From positions 1 through 31,723 of the IMG/VR virus record IMGVR_UViG_3300025585_000119: DNA of 31,723 nt; one strand, 5' to 3'. The position numbers and the translations under genes are program-made. Shown in pieces: positions 10,572 to 29,671 of the stretch. This DNA is from a virus. Under the pieces are notes generated by a model that was given only the letters and a program-made list of their open reading frames with translations, had not been told where the DNA came from and searched no databases. The first letter of the stretch is position 1. Each line of letters opens with the position of its first letter.

Positions 10572-11483
10572 TTAGATAAACCAATCCAACTTCTGTGCGG
10601 GAAATCCCGCAAAATTAGACAGGGAAAACACCTCCCCTGTCCTGCACATCCAATCGATTTCAATCGCCTTGATCCAGAATCCACCAGCAGGCTCGCCATA
10701 ATTGCCTGGGCTGGTGCCGTGACTGTGTCCCCAACTGTTTTGAATCCAGAATATTTCCCCAAATTCTGGATGGTTCACCCACCCAAGGCATGACATCTGA
10801 TGACCCCAAGTAGTTACCTTCCTGTTTAGCAGGATGGCTGGATTTCCCTTGATGGGTGGGGACATTTCCCCACCCCAGTTGGAAGCACAGGTGATGGGAT
10901 AACCATTAATCAGGGATATTCTGCAATCATCTGCTGAATGCAGCCTGGCTGAAGATTTGACCAGGTGTTTTCTGGCTGGTGTCAGGAATTTTTCTGGGAT
11001 GTGTTCCCCATCTGACCATTCCAGTTCCACCTTTTCACCCCAGATAAGTGACCCATCAGCCACCTTGTATTTTGGCACATCTGGATGATTGGCTGGAAGC
11101 ACACCATATTTTTGAATGGCTTCAATGGCAGCACTTCCAAACGATCCTTCACCCCTTCCATGGAGACCACCTATTTCCCTGCTTTTTCCATAGGGCAATA
11201 GCCAGAATGGGCAGGTTGGATCTTCAAGTTGGCCTAGCTGGTGGACTTCCACAGATTCAAGGCACCAAAGTGCCATGCCCAAACCACAGCCCACACAGGA
11301 CCCGGTTTGCTGGTAGAAAGGCTTGTGGTTTTTAATAAATTTATAAAGCAGTGCTTCCTTGGGTGTGTCATATTTGCCCTTGATTGCAAAGGCTGGCATT
11401 CGTGATTGGATTCTGGCATCCACATCAGTCTGGTATGGTGTCCTGTCCTCAGGCTGGATCCATCCCAGATTAGTAGGTGGCAT
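10572..11483 (-). CDS. Papain-like (C1 family) cysteine peptidase
   Basis: This 303-residue protein carries the papain triad in order. The oxyanion/nucleophile region QQTGSCVGCG puts the catalytic Cys at 63 with Gln58/59 before it. His228 lies in TTWGHQMSCLGW, and Asn249 in FWIQNSWGHSHG with the following Gly-rich turn. Papain-like enzymes cleave peptide bonds in proteins. Phages seldom carry them, although C1-like proteins occur in planctomycete genomes. There is no signal peptide or propeptide, so it would act in the cytoplasm or need a holin to exit. It sits two genes upstream of the holin-like gene, in the place where an endolysin would be expected. The ATG at 11483 has no visible Shine-Dalgarno sequence; translation may depend on coupling to the upstream gene, three bases away. 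Confidence 0.85.
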   Translation of the reverse strand: MPPTNLGWIQPEDRTPYQTDVDARIQSRMPAFAIKGKYDTPKEALLYKFIKNHKPFYQQTGSCVGCGLGMALWCLESVEVHQLGQLEDPTCPFWLLPYGKSREIGGLHGRGEGSFGSAAIEAIQKYGVLPANHPDVPKYKVADGSLIWGEKVELEWSDGEHIPEKFLTPARKHLVKSSARLHSADDCRISLINGYPITCASNWGGEMSPPIKGNPAILLNRKVTTWGHQMSCLGWVNHPEFGEIFWIQNSWGHSHGTSPGNYGEPAGGFWIKAIEIDWMCRTGEVFSLSNFAGFPAQKLDWFI

Positions 11484-22082: not shown

Positions 22083-22373
22083 TCATTCACCCTTTTTGGC
22101 CATGCCCTTTAGGGCATCAAAAACTTTAAGTGGGTCCATCCCCTTGGATCTTTCACCCAGCCAGTCAGGGATGAAATCCTGAAGTGTGTGCTTGTTTGTT
22201 GACACACAGGAAACCACTGTCATCATCATCAAACCAAAAAGGTAATCCATCCTGGCATCACCCAAAGGTTCAATCCTTGACAGTGCAACCCATTCCATGA
22301 ATTCTGAATGGGGCATTTCCTCAAGTTCTTCCACTGTCCGTCCCAGATGACCTGCCAGCCTGAACAAAAACAA
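22083..22373 (-). CDS. Tail assembly chaperone C-terminal (GT-type) extension
   Basis: This frame encodes about 96 residues (LFLFRLAGHLGRTVEELEEMPHSEFMEWVALSRIEPLGDARMDYLFGLMMM), the pattern of the lambda gpT/DUF4035-like part of the frameshifted tail chaperone. Its only start is a TTG at 22373 with no ribosome binding site. The frame is open backwards without a stop to the slippery site 22400-22394 in the upstream gene. It is therefore expected to be made as a -1 fusion of about 220 residues, as in lambda G-GT, which loads tube subunits onto the tape measure. The end overlaps the tape measure gene region by a few bases. Confidence 0.82.
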   Translation of the reverse strand: MFLFRLAGHLGRTVEELEEMPHSEFMEWVALSRIEPLGDARMDYLFGLMMMTVVSCVSTNKHTLQDFIPDWLGERSKGMDPLKVFDALKGMAKKGE

Positions 22374-22390
22374 CCTGGGTGGACAGTCCC

Positions 22391-22744
22391 TTAGTTTTTT
22401 TCCAGTTCCTCTACAGCACCAGGACCAATCTTGTTAACCTTCAGGATGCCATCAAATATTTTTTCAAGGATGGTTGCTGGTAGTTTGTTGATTTCAGGCA
22501 GGTCAGCTTCCGTGAAAATCGGTTGCCCCAATTCATCACAGCAACCCTTAACCAACATTCTGGCCCTTAAATTATCTGGGGTTTTTCCTTTTGACTTGGC
22601 AGCATTAAATTCACTATCAATCTGGTCCCGTTCCCCAACTGTCAGGGACCTGACCCACACAGACCCTTCCCATTCCTCTATCTGGATTTCCTGCCTGGGC
22701 AGGTTGTTTTTCTTGGAAAGGATCTGTGCCCTGTCTAAAGCCAT
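22391..22744 (-). CDS. Tail assembly chaperone (G-type)
   Basis: This 117-residue protein matches phage tail assembly chaperones in the lambda G position. The core reads VWVRSLTVGERDQIDSEFNAAK, RARMLVKGCCDELGQPIFTEADLPEINKLPATILEKIFDGILKVN, the helical fold of that family, and it ends VEELEKN. It lies between the tube protein and the tape measure gene. The last codons GAA AAA AAC precede the TAA stop and form the slippery site that gives the extended form. The chaperone is needed in far more copies than the fusion, which fits a low-frequency shift. The ribosome binding site is typical and the gap to the tube gene is nine bases. Confidence 0.88.
   Translation of the reverse strand: MALDRAQILSKKNNLPRQEIQIEEWEGSVWVRSLTVGERDQIDSEFNAAKSKGKTPDNLRARMLVKGCCDELGQPIFTEADLPEINKLPATILEKIFDGILKVNKIGPGAVEELEKN
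22394..22400 (-). promoter_or_regulatory. Programmed -1 ribosomal frameshift slippery site
   Basis: On the minus strand the heptamer A AAA AAC is read in frame as GAA AAA AAC, directly before the TAA stop. The -1 frame continues CTA AGG GAC TGT CCA CCC AGG without a stop into the GT-type extension. The heptamer fits the canonical X XXY YYZ pattern exactly. Bacterial ribosomes slip on such sequences, and the stop immediately downstream leaves time to shift. Confidence 0.85.
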
Positions 22745-25063: not shown

Positions 25064-25241
25064 TTCTCACCTCAGGCTGAATTTTAGAAATGGATTTTTC
25101 TGACTGTGCTGGTGGTGATGCAGGTTTGGCATAGCCGATCCTGCACCACTCAGCAGCAACATCTTCTGGAAGATCAACAGTCTGGTTGGCTCGAAAAGAT
25201 CTTCCGATACCAACCAGGGATTTTAAAATGATGACTTTCAT
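24975..25241 (-). CDS. Small protein between capsid and connector, unknown
   Basis: This 88-residue protein begins MKVIILKSLVGIGRSFRANQTVDLPEDVAAEWCRIGYAKP, a short beta/alpha pattern seen in small head-region proteins that interact with the connector or capsid. Its tail is disordered and rich in Ser, Pro, Gly and Lys (SEKSISKIQPEVRNEPS to RGKKPSKG). It is coupled to the capsid stop by TAATG. The last 89 bases overlap the connector gene in another frame, so its disordered tail may have arisen by extension past an old stop. Its role may be head-tail joining or capsid decoration. The N-terminal domain seems real; the function is not known. Confidence 0.65.
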   Translation of the reverse strand: MKVIILKSLVGIGRSFRANQTVDLPEDVAAEWCRIGYAKPASPPAQSEKSISKIQPEVRNEPSRISPGGDTTHPGTSQPARGKKPSKG

Positions 25242-26563
25242 TAGGATGCAGCCATCACCAAATGTTTGACAGGATTGTAGGTGGTTGCATTTGCGGTAAG
25301 CAACAAGCCACTGGACCTGTGAATGGCAACCCAGCCAATCTGTCCTGAGGTTGCATAGGTTTCAGATTGGCGAACTATGGTAAGTCCACCATCACCAGCA
25401 ACATCACGAACAAAATATTTGCTGAAATCACCAAACAGCAGAACCTTGGCACTAGCTGCAAGGCTGGATGCCATGTTGCTGTTGAGGGTGACAGGATAAC
25501 CAAGGATGGAAGGCACCCTGGCATCTGCACCTGCATAAGTCTGGCTGAATATTGGTGATCCATTGTCATCCTTCAATTTGGCTATAGCTGCCAAGATTGA
25601 TGGGTGACACATGAAGCCAACATTGCCATTCTGTTTGTATGCCTGATCAACTGAGAAGACCAAATCAATGATCTCATCCACAGTGAAAGCATTGGTAGCG
25701 GCAGCAGTTTTACCTGCAGCACTTCCTACTACCAAGCCCTGGGGCTGGGAACTTCCAGTCCCGGTTGTGAAGTAAGATTCCTGAATCCGGCCAATTCTAA
25801 TCCCGGCCTGCTCTGCCACCAGGGATTCAACATTGATCAAGGAATCCTGCAAAAGTTCATAGCTGGTGAGAACCTGGCCAGAACTGAATTTATAGGCTCC
25901 CATGGTTTTGTTGCTGAAGGTCAAGGCAACTTCACTGATGGAACCATTTTCAGCTATCAAACTTCCAGAATTGCTGGTGTCATCAAGACATGGCATCTGA
26001 ATGTTTGACCCATTACTGGTGCTGATAACAGTTGCGACCTGCCTTACACCATTGTAATCCTTTAGGGCTTGGGTCAGTGTGCCATAGAATTCATCATTGA
26101 CCAAAGCACCACCAATGCTGGTGGATCCAATTCCCTGGGCACGAGCTTCTAAACTCAATTCATTGCTGTTGAGGTCCAAGCCGATTTCATGGGCAGCATT
26201 GGCAAATTCAGATCTGAATCCCCTGGTGCCCTTGAGGAACCAGCCCCTGATGGCATTGGCCTTGTTTGCTGTGGCTTTTTTGTCATTCAGGTCAGTGACC
26301 ACATTGGGTGCAGCTATCGGGAATGCTTTCTTGGAAGACCGCTTAAGGGTTTCCAATTTGTTGGTGTTGGCTTCCCTCTGGCTGTTCATTGCCAGGTCAG
26401 ATTCAAGGTTGGAAACCCTTTCATCTATGGCAGCAACATTTGCAGCCAAGTCATCAAATGCTTGTTGCTCTTCTGGTGTCAATTGGCGTTTGGCCAATTC
26501 TTCCATTTTGGCAACCTTTTCCACTCTCTCAGCCTGAAGGCTTTTCAGTTCAGCAATAGCCAT
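25241..26563 (-). CDS. Major capsid protein, HK97 fold, with N-terminal delta/scaffold domain
   Basis: This 440-residue protein is the major capsid protein. Residues 1-80 are charged and helical (LKSLQAERVEKVAKMEELAKRQL, NVAAIDERVSNLESDLAMNS), the delta domain that acts as internal scaffold and is cut by the prohead protease. The HK97 fold follows (about 110-440) with EFYGTLTQALKDYNGVRQVATVIST, NKTMGAYKFSSGQVLTSYELLQD, SYFTTGTGSSQPQGLV, GFMCHPSILAAIAKL, ILGYPVTLNSNM and LLFGDFSKYFV. All are standard landmarks of the phage major capsid family. AAGGGG precedes the ATG by eight bases. The 143-base leader holds a strong stem (see the RNA entry), so its translation may be regulated. Confidence 0.94.
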   Translation of the reverse strand: MAIAELKSLQAERVEKVAKMEELAKRQLTPEEQQAFDDLAANVAAIDERVSNLESDLAMNSQREANTNKLETLKRSSKKAFPIAAPNVVTDLNDKKATANKANAIRGWFLKGTRGFRSEFANAAHEIGLDLNSNELSLEARAQGIGSTSIGGALVNDEFYGTLTQALKDYNGVRQVATVISTSNGSNIQMPCLDDTSNSGSLIAENGSISEVALTFSNKTMGAYKFSSGQVLTSYELLQDSLINVESLVAEQAGIRIGRIQESYFTTGTGSSQPQGLVVGSAAGKTAAATNAFTVDEIIDLVFSVDQAYKQNGNVGFMCHPSILAAIAKLKDDNGSPIFSQTYAGADARVPSILGYPVTLNSNMASSLAASAKVLLFGDFSKYFVRDVAGDGGLTIVRQSETYATSGQIGWVAIHRSSGLLLTANATTYNPVKHLVMAAS

Positions 26564-26706: not shown

Positions 26707-27126
26707 TTATTTTAAATTTTGAAGTTGTTTCTTTTCACCTGCTGTTAATTCAGATTTTGTCTTAATGACAACTTTGCTTTCATACTGGACTAATTGTGGA
26801 AATATTTTGTAAACCTCTCTATAGCAGTCATTTTTATCCCGTTCAAATATGACCCCAAGAACTTGATTTTTTTTATCAGGCATCTGGACTAATGCAATAA
26901 ATTCTTTTTTAGGCTTGGCCAAATGTCTTTTTTCCTGCACTAATTCTTCCATATCAGGTGGTAGGCTGTTTAAAAACAAAGTCCAATCTGTCTGATAAGG
27001 TGGTCTATTTTGCATTTTATCTATTATTTCTGCTACTTCATAACCATTTGAACCAGGTGACCAACCAGTCCCTAACTTTTGAACAATCCACCTTCTCATT
27101 TCATGCACATCTTTAAATACAATCAT
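26707..27126 (-). CDS. Orphan protein between protease and capsid, AT-rich
   Basis: This 139-residue protein is not recognised. It has a helical N-terminal part (MIVFKDVHEMRRWIVQKLGTGW, then GYEVAEIIDKMQ), a proline and tryptophan turn (NRPPYQTDWTLFLNSLPPD), a strand-rich middle (FIALVQMPDKKNQVLGVIFERDK, CYREVYKIFPQL) and a lysine-rich end. The base composition is visibly more AT-rich than the neighbouring head genes, and it is bounded by gaps on both sides (35 and 143 bases) in an otherwise overlapping operon. That suggests an insertion by horizontal transfer. It may be a non-essential cargo gene, an anti-host factor or a head component. Nothing in the sequence decides between these. Confidence 0.6.
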   Translation of the reverse strand: MIVFKDVHEMRRWIVQKLGTGWSPGSNGYEVAEIIDKMQNRPPYQTDWTLFLNSLPPDMEELVQEKRHLAKPKKEFIALVQMPDKKNQVLGVIFERDKNDCYREVYKIFPQLVQYESKVVIKTKSELTAGEKKQLQNLK

Positions 27127-27161: not shown

Positions 27162-28085
27162 TCAGGATACTTTGGATATACCTAAATCTTTGTAAATTTT
27201 TCTGACTTTGGGATTATCATCAAAGACTTGAATGACACTGGATGCAAACTTGCTGACTGTTTTCTGTTTAAATTCAAGCTGCTGTTCTGGTGTGGATCCA
27301 ATGTCATTCATGAAAAGCTTATCAAACAAAACACCAGCAGCTTTAAGGCTATTGGTGGTATTTTGTCTTTGGCTTTCCATCCTGCCTGTGACCACATAAA
27401 TCAAATGCAGCTTGGAAAGCTCATTCACCTGGTCTACTTTTTTTTTTATGGGTGTGGTGCCATTGGCCAGCAAAGTGTTGTCCACATCCACCACCACTAT
27501 TCCAGATTTGGCCCTGTGGGAAAGCTGCAAAAATTTCACAAGATTCTGCCTCTGCTGATGCATGGCAGCATCCTGCTGATTCATGGATTCAAACTGATTC
27601 ATGGATCTAAGACCTACTTCCGTGTCTAAGTAAGCTGGATAAGTGACTGCTGAAACATCATGGAGGTCCACATCCAGAAGGGTTCTAATGTTGCTGGTCC
27701 CTTCCTTGGCCCATGTATCCTGCTTGGTGACAAAAGCAAATGACATCTGGGTGACATCACCCCTTTCCAGTGACACCATTAAATCCCTGGCATAGCTAGT
27801 GTCAGGTGGTGTGATTTCCACCAGAAGACCTGTTGAGTCTGTGGAAAGTCTCAGGGTTCCACTCACAGTCCTGCCTAAGATCAAGGATGGATTATGATCA
27901 ATCAGTGCCCTGACATCTGCATTTTCAGCCAGTGTTCTGGTGAATGCCTGTGGGTCTATCTGTTCAATAAAGCCACCAAGGTCCTGGGACCGATTGGGTG
28001 CAAACTTGGCAGCATAGCCAACTATTTTTTTACCCTCAGGCTGGAATTGAATTTCAGTGCTAAATCTTTTTTCTAGCTTAACCAT
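27162..28085 (-). CDS. HK97-type prohead protease fused to a HAD-type phosphatase domain
   Basis: From ATG 28085 (GGGAGGA six bases upstream) this protein has 307 residues. Residues 1-160 are an HK97-type (S78/U35) prohead protease: His64 in LIDHNPSLILGR, Ser115 in VTQMSFAF and the acidic HDVSAVTYPAYLDTEV near 142-157. After a Met/Gln-rich linker (161-190), residues 194-305 carry the four HAD motifs. These are DVDNTLL with Asp200 and Asp202, VVTGR with Thr233, a lysine near 273-275 (FKQKT), and FDDNP with Asp289/290. HAD enzymes hydrolyse phosphates; the layout resembles polynucleotide kinase 3'-phosphatase and similar small forms. The fusion is unusual. An upstream start at 28100 is less well supported. 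Both domains look intact. The protease role in head maturation is firm, the HAD role unknown. Confidence 0.88.
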   Translation of the reverse strand: MVKLEKRFSTEIQFQPEGKKIVGYAAKFAPNRSQDLGGFIEQIDPQAFTRTLAENADVRALIDHNPSLILGRTVSGTLRLSTDSTGLLVEITPPDTSYARDLMVSLERGDVTQMSFAFVTKQDTWAKEGTSNIRTLLDVDLHDVSAVTYPAYLDTEVGLRSMNQFESMNQQDAAMHQQRQNLVKFLQLSHRAKSGIVVVDVDNTLLANGTTPIKKKVDQVNELSKLHLIYVVTGRMESQRQNTTNSLKAAGVLFDKLFMNDIGSTPEQQLEFKQKTVSKFASSVIQVFDDNPKVRKIYKDLGISKVS

Positions 28086-29671
28086 GTGACATCCTCCCAT
28101 GTTGCTGGCAGTTCCAGCCAGTCCTTTAATCGTGCTTCCGTGTTTTCCTTCAAATTTGCAGGAGTGCTTTCACCCGCAATGTCCAGCCATTCCCGTTTCA
28201 GGTCTGCACAGTGTGCTGCTGCAGCCCTGGATGCTCCACCCACATCAGGTTTGATGAATTCCAAAACTGGGTCCAGTATTATCTGCACCCTTTCCTGATG
28301 ACCTTCCAAAAACTTTTCAAGGGCTGGCAGGAAATCCCCAGGCTTGTTGGAAATTCTTTTTAAGTGGGTAGATTCAATCTTCCTGATCTGTTTCCTGGCA
28401 GCTTCCAATAATCTTGAATATCCTATGGAATTCTGTTGGGGCATCTGATTTAGGGTGGATTGCTGGTCCACTGCTGCTGTAGTCTGGTTTGGCCCAAAAG
28501 CTGGATCCATGTTCTTAGGTGTCATGTAACTTTGACCACCTTCAAAAGCTGGCAGGTTTTCCAATGCTCTCACCTCATTCCGATTAAGCCAGCCCCATGA
28601 AATTGCACTGGCATAAAATGCTGATCGGGCTGCACTGTCACCCCTTAGCAAAGCATCCTGATTATGTTCAGCATAAATGTCAGGATCCTTGATAAGTTTC
28701 ATCCTGATTTCCTGTTCCCACCTAATTAGCCAAGGTCTTAGGGTTTCCTGCAGGAAGTTCAGGTTATCTTGTTCTAAGCTAGAATAGGATGACCCAGAAG
28801 TGTCACCAAGTTTTGATGCTGGAATCCTAAACCATCTAGCAATTTCTTGAAGTTGGAATGATCTGGAACCTACCCACTGGGCATCATCCGGGCTAATTCC
28901 TATGGATTGATAAGTGACACCATTTTGCAGAATGGCAACCCTATGGGAATTTTTGCTGCTACTGTGCATTTCTTCCCAAGATTTTCGCATGTTCTGAATA
29001 GCTTCAGAATTCAATTTACCTGGGACACTGATAACCCCAGATGGTTTGGCACCATTGGCAAAGAAACTGGCACCATAATTTTCCAAGGCCATGCCAAGCC
29101 CTATGGCTTCCTTGGCATTGGCAATCACTGAATAGCCTTTGATCCCATCAAACCCAAGACCTTTAATGTGCAGGATCTCATCTGGCATGAAGATGATGCT
29201 TCCATACTGGTAATACAGATCCCCATTTTCATCCCGCACAGGCTGACAGACATCTGGCCTGAGTGGCCACAATCCGATCACATTTCCCCTGCCATCCCTT
29301 TCAATTTCCGCATAGCCATTTCCCCAGGTCAACACATGACCCATGATGGTTTCCCGGAAGATAAGTGAACCCATTTCAGGATTGGGGCTGTCATGAAGCA
29401 AATTATAAAGTGGGTTTTGCAGATCCTTGGTTCTGCCACCATTTGGGTCTTTTCGGTAGACCTGCAATGGCAGTGATGCAACACCCTCTGAAATGGATCT
29501 GACTGCAGCCCAAACAGCACTGTAAGTTAGACTGGATGCCTGATTGACTGACTGGCCTGATGATGATGTTCCTGTGTAAGTCCAAGCACCTGAATCACTG
29601 ACCACTGAATAACCACCAGCAAGCTTGAAGAAATTAGAAAGGATTGATCTGAATGAAGGCATGGTGGTCAC
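28073..29671 (-). CDS. Portal protein (HK97 family)
   Basis: This 532-residue protein is an HK97-type portal, a dodecameric channel at one capsid vertex through which DNA passes. It shows SAVWAAVRSISEGVASLPLQVYRKD near 52-76, then ILHIKGLGFDGIKGYSVIANAKEAIGLGMALENYGASFFANGAKPSGVI. It continues with WVGSRSFQLQEIARWFRIPASKLGD, EQDNLNFLQETLRPWLIRWEQEI and GWLNRNEVRALENLP, the usual family landmarks. Residues about 400-532 are a longer helical C-terminal extension than in the simplest portals. The GTG at 29671 overlaps the large terminase stop by three bases (GTGA); an ATG at 29662 is also in frame. It overlaps the protease start by 13 bases. Confidence 0.92.
   Translation of the reverse strand: MTTMPSFRSILSNFFKLAGGYSVVSDSGAWTYTGTSSSGQSVNQASSLTYSAVWAAVRSISEGVASLPLQVYRKDPNGGRTKDLQNPLYNLLHDSPNPEMGSLIFRETIMGHVLTWGNGYAEIERDGRGNVIGLWPLRPDVCQPVRDENGDLYYQYGSIIFMPDEILHIKGLGFDGIKGYSVIANAKEAIGLGMALENYGASFFANGAKPSGVISVPGKLNSEAIQNMRKSWEEMHSSSKNSHRVAILQNGVTYQSIGISPDDAQWVGSRSFQLQEIARWFRIPASKLGDTSGSSYSSLEQDNLNFLQETLRPWLIRWEQEIRMKLIKDPDIYAEHNQDALLRGDSAARSAFYASAISWGWLNRNEVRALENLPAFEGGQSYMTPKNMDPAFGPNQTTAAVDQQSTLNQMPQQNSIGYSRLLEAARKQIRKIESTHLKRISNKPGDFLPALEKFLEGHQERVQIILDPVLEFIKPDVGGASRAAAAHCADLKREWLDIAGESTPANLKENTEARLKDWLELPATWEDVTWLS

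Follow-up and report, generated by a model that had tools for sequence, protein, structure and literature searches.

A phage gene lying between the portal and major capsid protein genes probably gives rise to two products, a short prohead protease of the S78 type and a fusion of this protease to a HAD-type phosphatase domain that would be made by slippage on a run of adenines. The gene was found on the minus strand of a 31,723-nucleotide stretch of virus DNA, which is referred to below as the window. In most of its relatives the main product would be the protease, ending at a UAG directly after a tract of nine or ten adenines (...NGTTPIKKK-stop). The second product would arise when the RNA polymerase or the ribosome slips on the tract and enters the frame that carries HAD motifs II-IV. 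Motif I is encoded upstream of the tract and motifs II-IV downstream, so that a complete phosphatase active site would exist in the slipped product only. The idea that a working C-terminal HAD is expressed on its own was rejected on the same ground, as motif I precedes the tract and is in the other frame. The window contig carries the reverse of the usual situation: its tract is one base longer, the fusion would be read directly, and slippage would yield the short protease.

The gene encodes 307 amino acids in a single frame, in which the S78 prohead protease is followed by a complete minimal HAD core (Table 1), and an alternative reading of 312 amino acids from position 28100 is possible. An earlier, sequence-only reading of the window had described one uninterrupted frame here, and there is indeed no stop between the ATG and position 27162 on the minus strand. 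The protease part matches PF04586 (Peptidase_S78) with an E-value of 6.3e-43 and 147 bits (curated cut-off 21) and TIGR01543 with an E-value of 3.3e-32 and 112 bits (cut-off 59). The catalytic His64 and Ser115 are invariant across the aligned sequences, and these two residue numbers, as well as that of the acidic position at 142-143 (His142-Asp143), had been given correctly. The gene shares with the HK97-family prohead proteases the domain match above cut-off, the catalytic His and Ser, and the order portal-protease-capsid, but it adds a C-terminal HAD that is reached via the A tract. Prohead proteases are usually regarded as disposable assembly tools. The gene for a 139-residue protein that follows the HAD has no match in Pfam or PHROG.

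Table 1. Positions of the protease-HAD gene, its parts and its neighbours in the window
Feature	Position	Strand	Remarks
Portal protein gene	28073..29671	-	Phage_portal 6e-115; overlaps protease start
GGGAGG Shine-Dalgarno-like sequence	28093..28098	-	7 nt upstream of ATG; read directly from the sequence
Prohead protease-HAD gene	27162..28085	-	307 aa; ATG start at 28085
Peptidase_S78 (HK97-type prohead protease) domain	27582..28034	-	His64, Ser115, His142-Asp143
HAD-type phosphatase domain	27165..27548	-	Stretch modelled by AlphaFold2, pLDDT 94.9
HAD motif I, DVDNT (200-204: Asp200, Asp202, Thr204)	27474..27488	-	Upstream of A tract
A10 tract (T10 on the + strand)	27438..27447	-	Family-wide reading-frame break point
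TAG triplet after A10G	27434..27436	-	In frame in ten -1-phase relatives but not in the window
HAD motif II, TGR (233-235; Thr233, Arg235)	27381..27389	-	Sequence and alignment
HAD motif III, Lys273	27267..27269	-	Alignment
HAD motif IV, Asp289-Asp290	27216..27221	-	Sequence and alignment
139-aa gene, downstream of HAD	26707..27126	-	Flanked by the HAD and the capsid gene
HK97-fold major capsid protein gene	25241..26563	-	Phage_capsid 6e-52

The C-terminal domain contains the four HAD motifs (DxD, T, K and an acidic pair) in order, all at the positions named in the sequence-only reading, the lysine that had been placed at 273-275 being Lys273. The C-terminal part matches the HAD family Acid_phosphat_B of Pfam with an E-value of 1.3e-5, which is slightly below the curated cut-off, and residues 192-309 of the 312-residue ORF match the PHROG family phrog_415, 'polynucleotide kinase', with an E-value of 8.4e-13. 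An AlphaFold2 model of the whole protein, for which the alignment contained split rows, had a pLDDT of 52 and was set aside; the HAD part alone, with a deeper alignment of 42 relatives, gave a pLDDT of 94.9 and a pTM of 0.87. The structure prediction and fold comparison that had been proposed thus returned a HAD core, and among the PDB entries matched by the model in Foldseek is the 3'-phosphatase of T4 Pnkp (5uj0, 1rrc; TM 0.74-0.77 over the query), along with other significant matches that include HADs of the lipin/Nir2 type. Searches of PDB sequences with the HAD part gave very weak or unrelated matches only. A protein of phage RB49 is 36% identical to the window HAD over 94 residues. Sequence and model together indicate that the match is not due to chance, and they support a HAD-type phosphatase core which is complete and conserved and is similar to the polynucleotide 3'-phosphatases.

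The more specific assignment to nucleic-acid 3'-phosphatases, which had been suggested earlier, is matched by the fold of T4 Pnkp but not by the details of the sequence. The window family lacks an insertion of about 30 residues that follows motif I in the stand-alone phage HADs (RB49, Lidtsur, G3B1, OzMSK and others). It also lacks the Asp of the RKDxxxK element, four residues before the motif-III Lys, while the Lys itself is kept. Residues in the insertion region and in the RKDxxxK region are needed for the phosphatase activity of T4 Pnkp. Because both the insertion and the Asp are absent, the assignment is weakened. The Pfam family HAD_PNKP (PF25109) did not match the window protein at E<=1, and its sequence does not place the domain among the PNKP 3'-phosphatases. 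What it has in common with T4 Pnkp and the phage polynucleotide 3'-phosphatases (HAD_PNKP; RB49, Lidtsur) is the HAD core and the order of the motifs; T4 Pnkp differs further in having a kinase domain, which the window protein does not.

Relatives were sought in IMG/VR with the protein, with its HAD part and with a HAD alignment, and in GTDB genomes. Twelve other contigs carry the same C-terminal HAD (L003, L004, L073-L081 and L084); a scan of IMG/VR for the DNA pattern of the tract added no members to those known. The gene is out of frame in all 12 and in one frame in the window alone, so that the uninterrupted frame described earlier stands for the window, but the gene is not simply an uninterrupted one. 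The break is always at the Lys-Lys-Lys of the sequence P-[I/V]-KKK-[V/I]-[D/E]-Q, within the HAD and between motif I (DxDNT in the family, DIDKT in L079) and motif II. The tract is A9G in L003, L084, L076 and L078 and A10 in L004, L073, L074, L075, L077 and L079. In these ten of the 12 contigs the protease frame runs into UAG directly behind the tract, and motifs II-IV are in the -1 frame. The other two, L080 and L081, come from two assemblies but show no difference along 6455 nt; their tract is A8G, which corresponds to phase +1/-2. With A10G, the window exceeds its near relatives L003 and L084 by a single base, and its frame therefore reads through. Its uninterrupted frame hangs on one base in this A10 tract, the longest homopolymer of the 31.7 kb (the next longest is 8). 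One of the near relatives, L084, is RFQY01000007.1, a contig from a Rhodobacteraceae bin; across nearly 10 kb of head genes it has about 80% identity with the window. It is probably a phage contig that ended up in a bacterial bin, which may be a case of misbinning.

It is very unlikely that the protein is a plain, continuous protease-HAD polyprotein in which the tract is incidental. The window does read as one frame, and constitutive fusions exist, with a HAD and then S78 in one ORF in at least 29 loci, most of which have no slippery run in between; all 12 relatives with a C-terminal HAD, however, would need an error at the same place, and the error would have to include the two assemblies with the identical A8 tract. 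Sequencing error in all relatives was not accepted as an explanation. An error confined to the window is a real possibility, though short of an even chance: its extra base would have come from assembly or amplification, and the true sequence would be out of frame like that of the relatives. Homopolymers of ten are prone to error, and A10G occurs in the window alone. Set against this is the true variation of tract length in the family (A8G, A9G, A10), and slippage tolerates any phase. If the extra base is an error, the single frame of the window is an artefact, which is compatible with two products made by slippage.

The sequence after the tract is constrained as a coding sequence also where it is out of frame. 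The HAD frame is open for 91 codons after the tract in all 11 sequences compared, and the other two frames contain 5-12 stops each. Upstream and downstream of the tract alike, the ratio pN/pS is low. For the post-tract HAD of pairs in which both members are out of frame it is 0.11 in L073/L079 (Fisher p 6.5e-6), 0.19 in L074/L078 (Fisher p 2.4e-3), 0.20 in L076/L077 (Fisher p 2.8e-3) and 0.29 in L004/L003 (p 1.5e-11), these pairs being not fully independent; L003/L084, with 0.42 and p 0.07, falls short of significance alone. The relatives are few and related to each other, and the counts among them are likewise not independent. The catalytic motif positions are retained across the family, the first Asp of motif IV being sometimes Glu. 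Judged from these comparisons, both halves of the gene are under purifying selection, and because of this the full HAD is probably produced via transcriptional slippage or ribosomal frameshifting.

Codon use at the tract is equally uniform. The Val/Ile codons on both sides of it are xTA in all 11 sequences, while in the genes of the window GTA makes up 10% of the Val codons and ATA 19% of the Ile codons. Because xTA adjoins an Asp or Glu codon, the UAG is kept at the tract. Other Lys-Lys-Lys stretches in the window genes that were checked mix AAA and AAG. These observations bear on the quite unlikely explanation that the tract is a mutable DNA switch and that the window and its relatives represent phase-ON and phase-OFF phages. 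Three tract phases do occur among the contigs, and homopolymer switches are known from bacteria (PMC3711429). Phase variation is at odds, however, with the finding that ten of the 13 contigs are in the same phase, that the out-of-frame part is constrained more than expected if the OFF state were silent, and that the UAG stays adjacent to the tract by means of rare Val/Ile codons.

Slippage on the tract, the preferred explanation, has precedents. In E. coli reporters, frameshifting reached 40% at nine As, 63% at 11 and 10% at seven, and the Thermus dnaX gene uses transcriptional slippage at nine As (PMC3711429). RNA folding of the region around the tract revealed no consistent downstream structure or element, and no Shine-Dalgarno-like stimulator was found upstream of it, which argues against a classical ribosomal signal; long A tracts may need no stimulatory element. 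The three tract phases are more in keeping with transcriptional slippage than with -1 ribosomal frameshifting, since a mixture arises from slippage whatever length is encoded, whereas -1 frameshifting would serve the ten -1 members only. By judgement, transcriptional slippage is given a little better than an even chance, ribosomal frameshifting a clearly smaller one, and any other mechanism a small one. Thermus dnaX, the IS elements and the tail-chaperone pairs of phages likewise have a tract of 8-10 As that joins two frames, with a stop at the tract. The window family differs from these genes in that the slip would complete a second enzyme on a prohead protease. Searches of the open-access literature turned up no case of recoding in a prohead or maturation protease.

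The pairing of a HAD with a prohead protease is not confined to the window family. The best viral structural matches of the HAD model are 'prohead protease' entries of uncultured Caudovirales (A0A6J5NAI8, A0A6J5MQJ8, A0A6J5S5M9, A0A6J7WPK9 and A0A6J5R419), of which A0A6J5NAI8 has an E-value of 1.5e-11 and 32% identity. A scan of IMG/VR with the HAD alignment returned at least 54 loci, some of them near duplicates (L304 was left out, being the contig of L073). HAD and S78 occur in one ORF, HAD first, in at least 29 of the loci (29 of 53 among the matches listed), and Pfam confirms the pairing in the examples tested. The HAD_PNKP cut-off is exceeded by three of these ORFs (L307, L313 and L326) and equalled by one (L312). 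The positions of D200, D202, T204, T233, R235 and K273 are invariant in the 29 listed ORFs; at D289 either Asp or Glu occurs. Most of the listed ORFs have no long homopolymer between HAD and S78.

These ORFs (L307, L312 and L313, for example) and the uncultured Caudovirales entries share with the window family the short HAD without the insertion, the motif residues and the pairing with S78. In the IMG/VR ORFs a single frame encodes the HAD, about 150 further residues and S78, in this order and in most cases behind an N-terminal MPYFITD...GCH segment, whereas in the window family S78 comes first and the frame breaks inside the HAD. Most of the HAD-S78 ORFs (L307, L313, L314, L320 and others) start with a conserved MPYFITD...GWATVKEDGEVMGCH..KQ.AIDQM segment, and the same segment precedes the HAD in L331 and L342. 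In the latter two loci the order is portal, S78, a separate HAD gene that overlaps it (TAATG), and capsid; in L306 a HAD gene precedes the S78 gene. On the sequence evidence there are at least three arrangements of the HAD-protease pair, and in that of the window family the HAD is C-terminal and probably reached by recoding. The recurrence of the pair and the conservation of the motifs, which had been proposed as a check, are borne out, and no HAD was found outside the known family in a screen of 80 further S78 loci. The sequence-only reading knew of no characterised case of the fusion; searches of the open-access literature likewise turned up no description of a prohead protease-HAD pairing, but in sequence data the pairing is common. 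Phage proteins named XkdF (A0A6J5N6Z6, A0A6J7WEB6 and A0A6J7WLI9 in BFVD) also match the HAD structurally, and the pairing may extend through them to another type of head protein.

The presence of the HAD varies among close relatives, and L002 and L005-L007 lack it altogether. Where protease relatives at 70-77% identity have no HAD, a short tail ends just where the HAD would start. L002 shows 97.9% nucleotide identity along the first 575 nt and 100% along the final 145 nt ahead of the capsid gene, and between these parts a different stretch of 526 nt replaces the HAD and the 139-residue gene. The HAD and this gene have therefore been exchanged as a block. That such close relatives lack the HAD altogether, that the first Asp of motif IV varies to Glu and that L079 has DIDKT could be taken to mean that the domain is a dying remnant in the relatives. 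Decay is nevertheless highly improbable, with pN/pS well below 1, an open frame in every member and the catalytic positions kept.

Several steps may be proposed for what a fusion made by slippage would do. The protease part would bring the phosphatase into the prohead in limited amounts, following the Gag-Pol principle, and autocleavage may free the enzyme there. Once freed, it could act while the DNA is packaged or once it has been ejected, its substrate being nucleic-acid ends, a nucleotide or a phosphoprotein. In its full form, in which a few phosphatase domains enter the prohead, are cleaved free and act on DNA ends at packaging or are delivered with the DNA, and in which the HAD-protease pairings elsewhere are constitutive versions of the same device, this proposal is tentative and on balance unlikely. 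Somewhat unlikely as well, though a little less so, is a phosphatase of the cytoplasm that serves nucleic-acid end repair or nucleotide metabolism and is linked to the protease by late co-expression only. Such a role would suit the loci in which the HAD is a separate gene, after the protease (L331, L342) or before it (L306), and the stand-alone relatives carry a 3'-phosphatase annotation; the HAD is, on the other hand, repeatedly found beside protease and portal or capsid genes, and has repeatedly been fused physically.

A catalytically conserved phosphatase that is repeatedly tied to prohead proteases points to a chemical reaction, so far unrecognised, in the maturation of the head or the delivery of the genome, and the window family would add a dosage device, recoding placing the enzyme on a part of the protease only. 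There is also a warning for annotation: gene callers can be expected to list a shortened protease plus a HAD fragment without its head, so that in most members the enzyme will be overlooked.

Two other genes on the minus strand of the window deserve mention. A tail-assembly chaperone pair lies at 22083-22744, where the first frame ends in GAA AAA AAC TAA and the -1 frame enters the second ORF; the layout A_AAA_AAC_TAA is of the classical A-rich -1 type, in the same phage. At 10572-11483 a protein of 303 residues is encoded which has a weak PHROG peptidase match (E 0.014) and is papain-like by eye.
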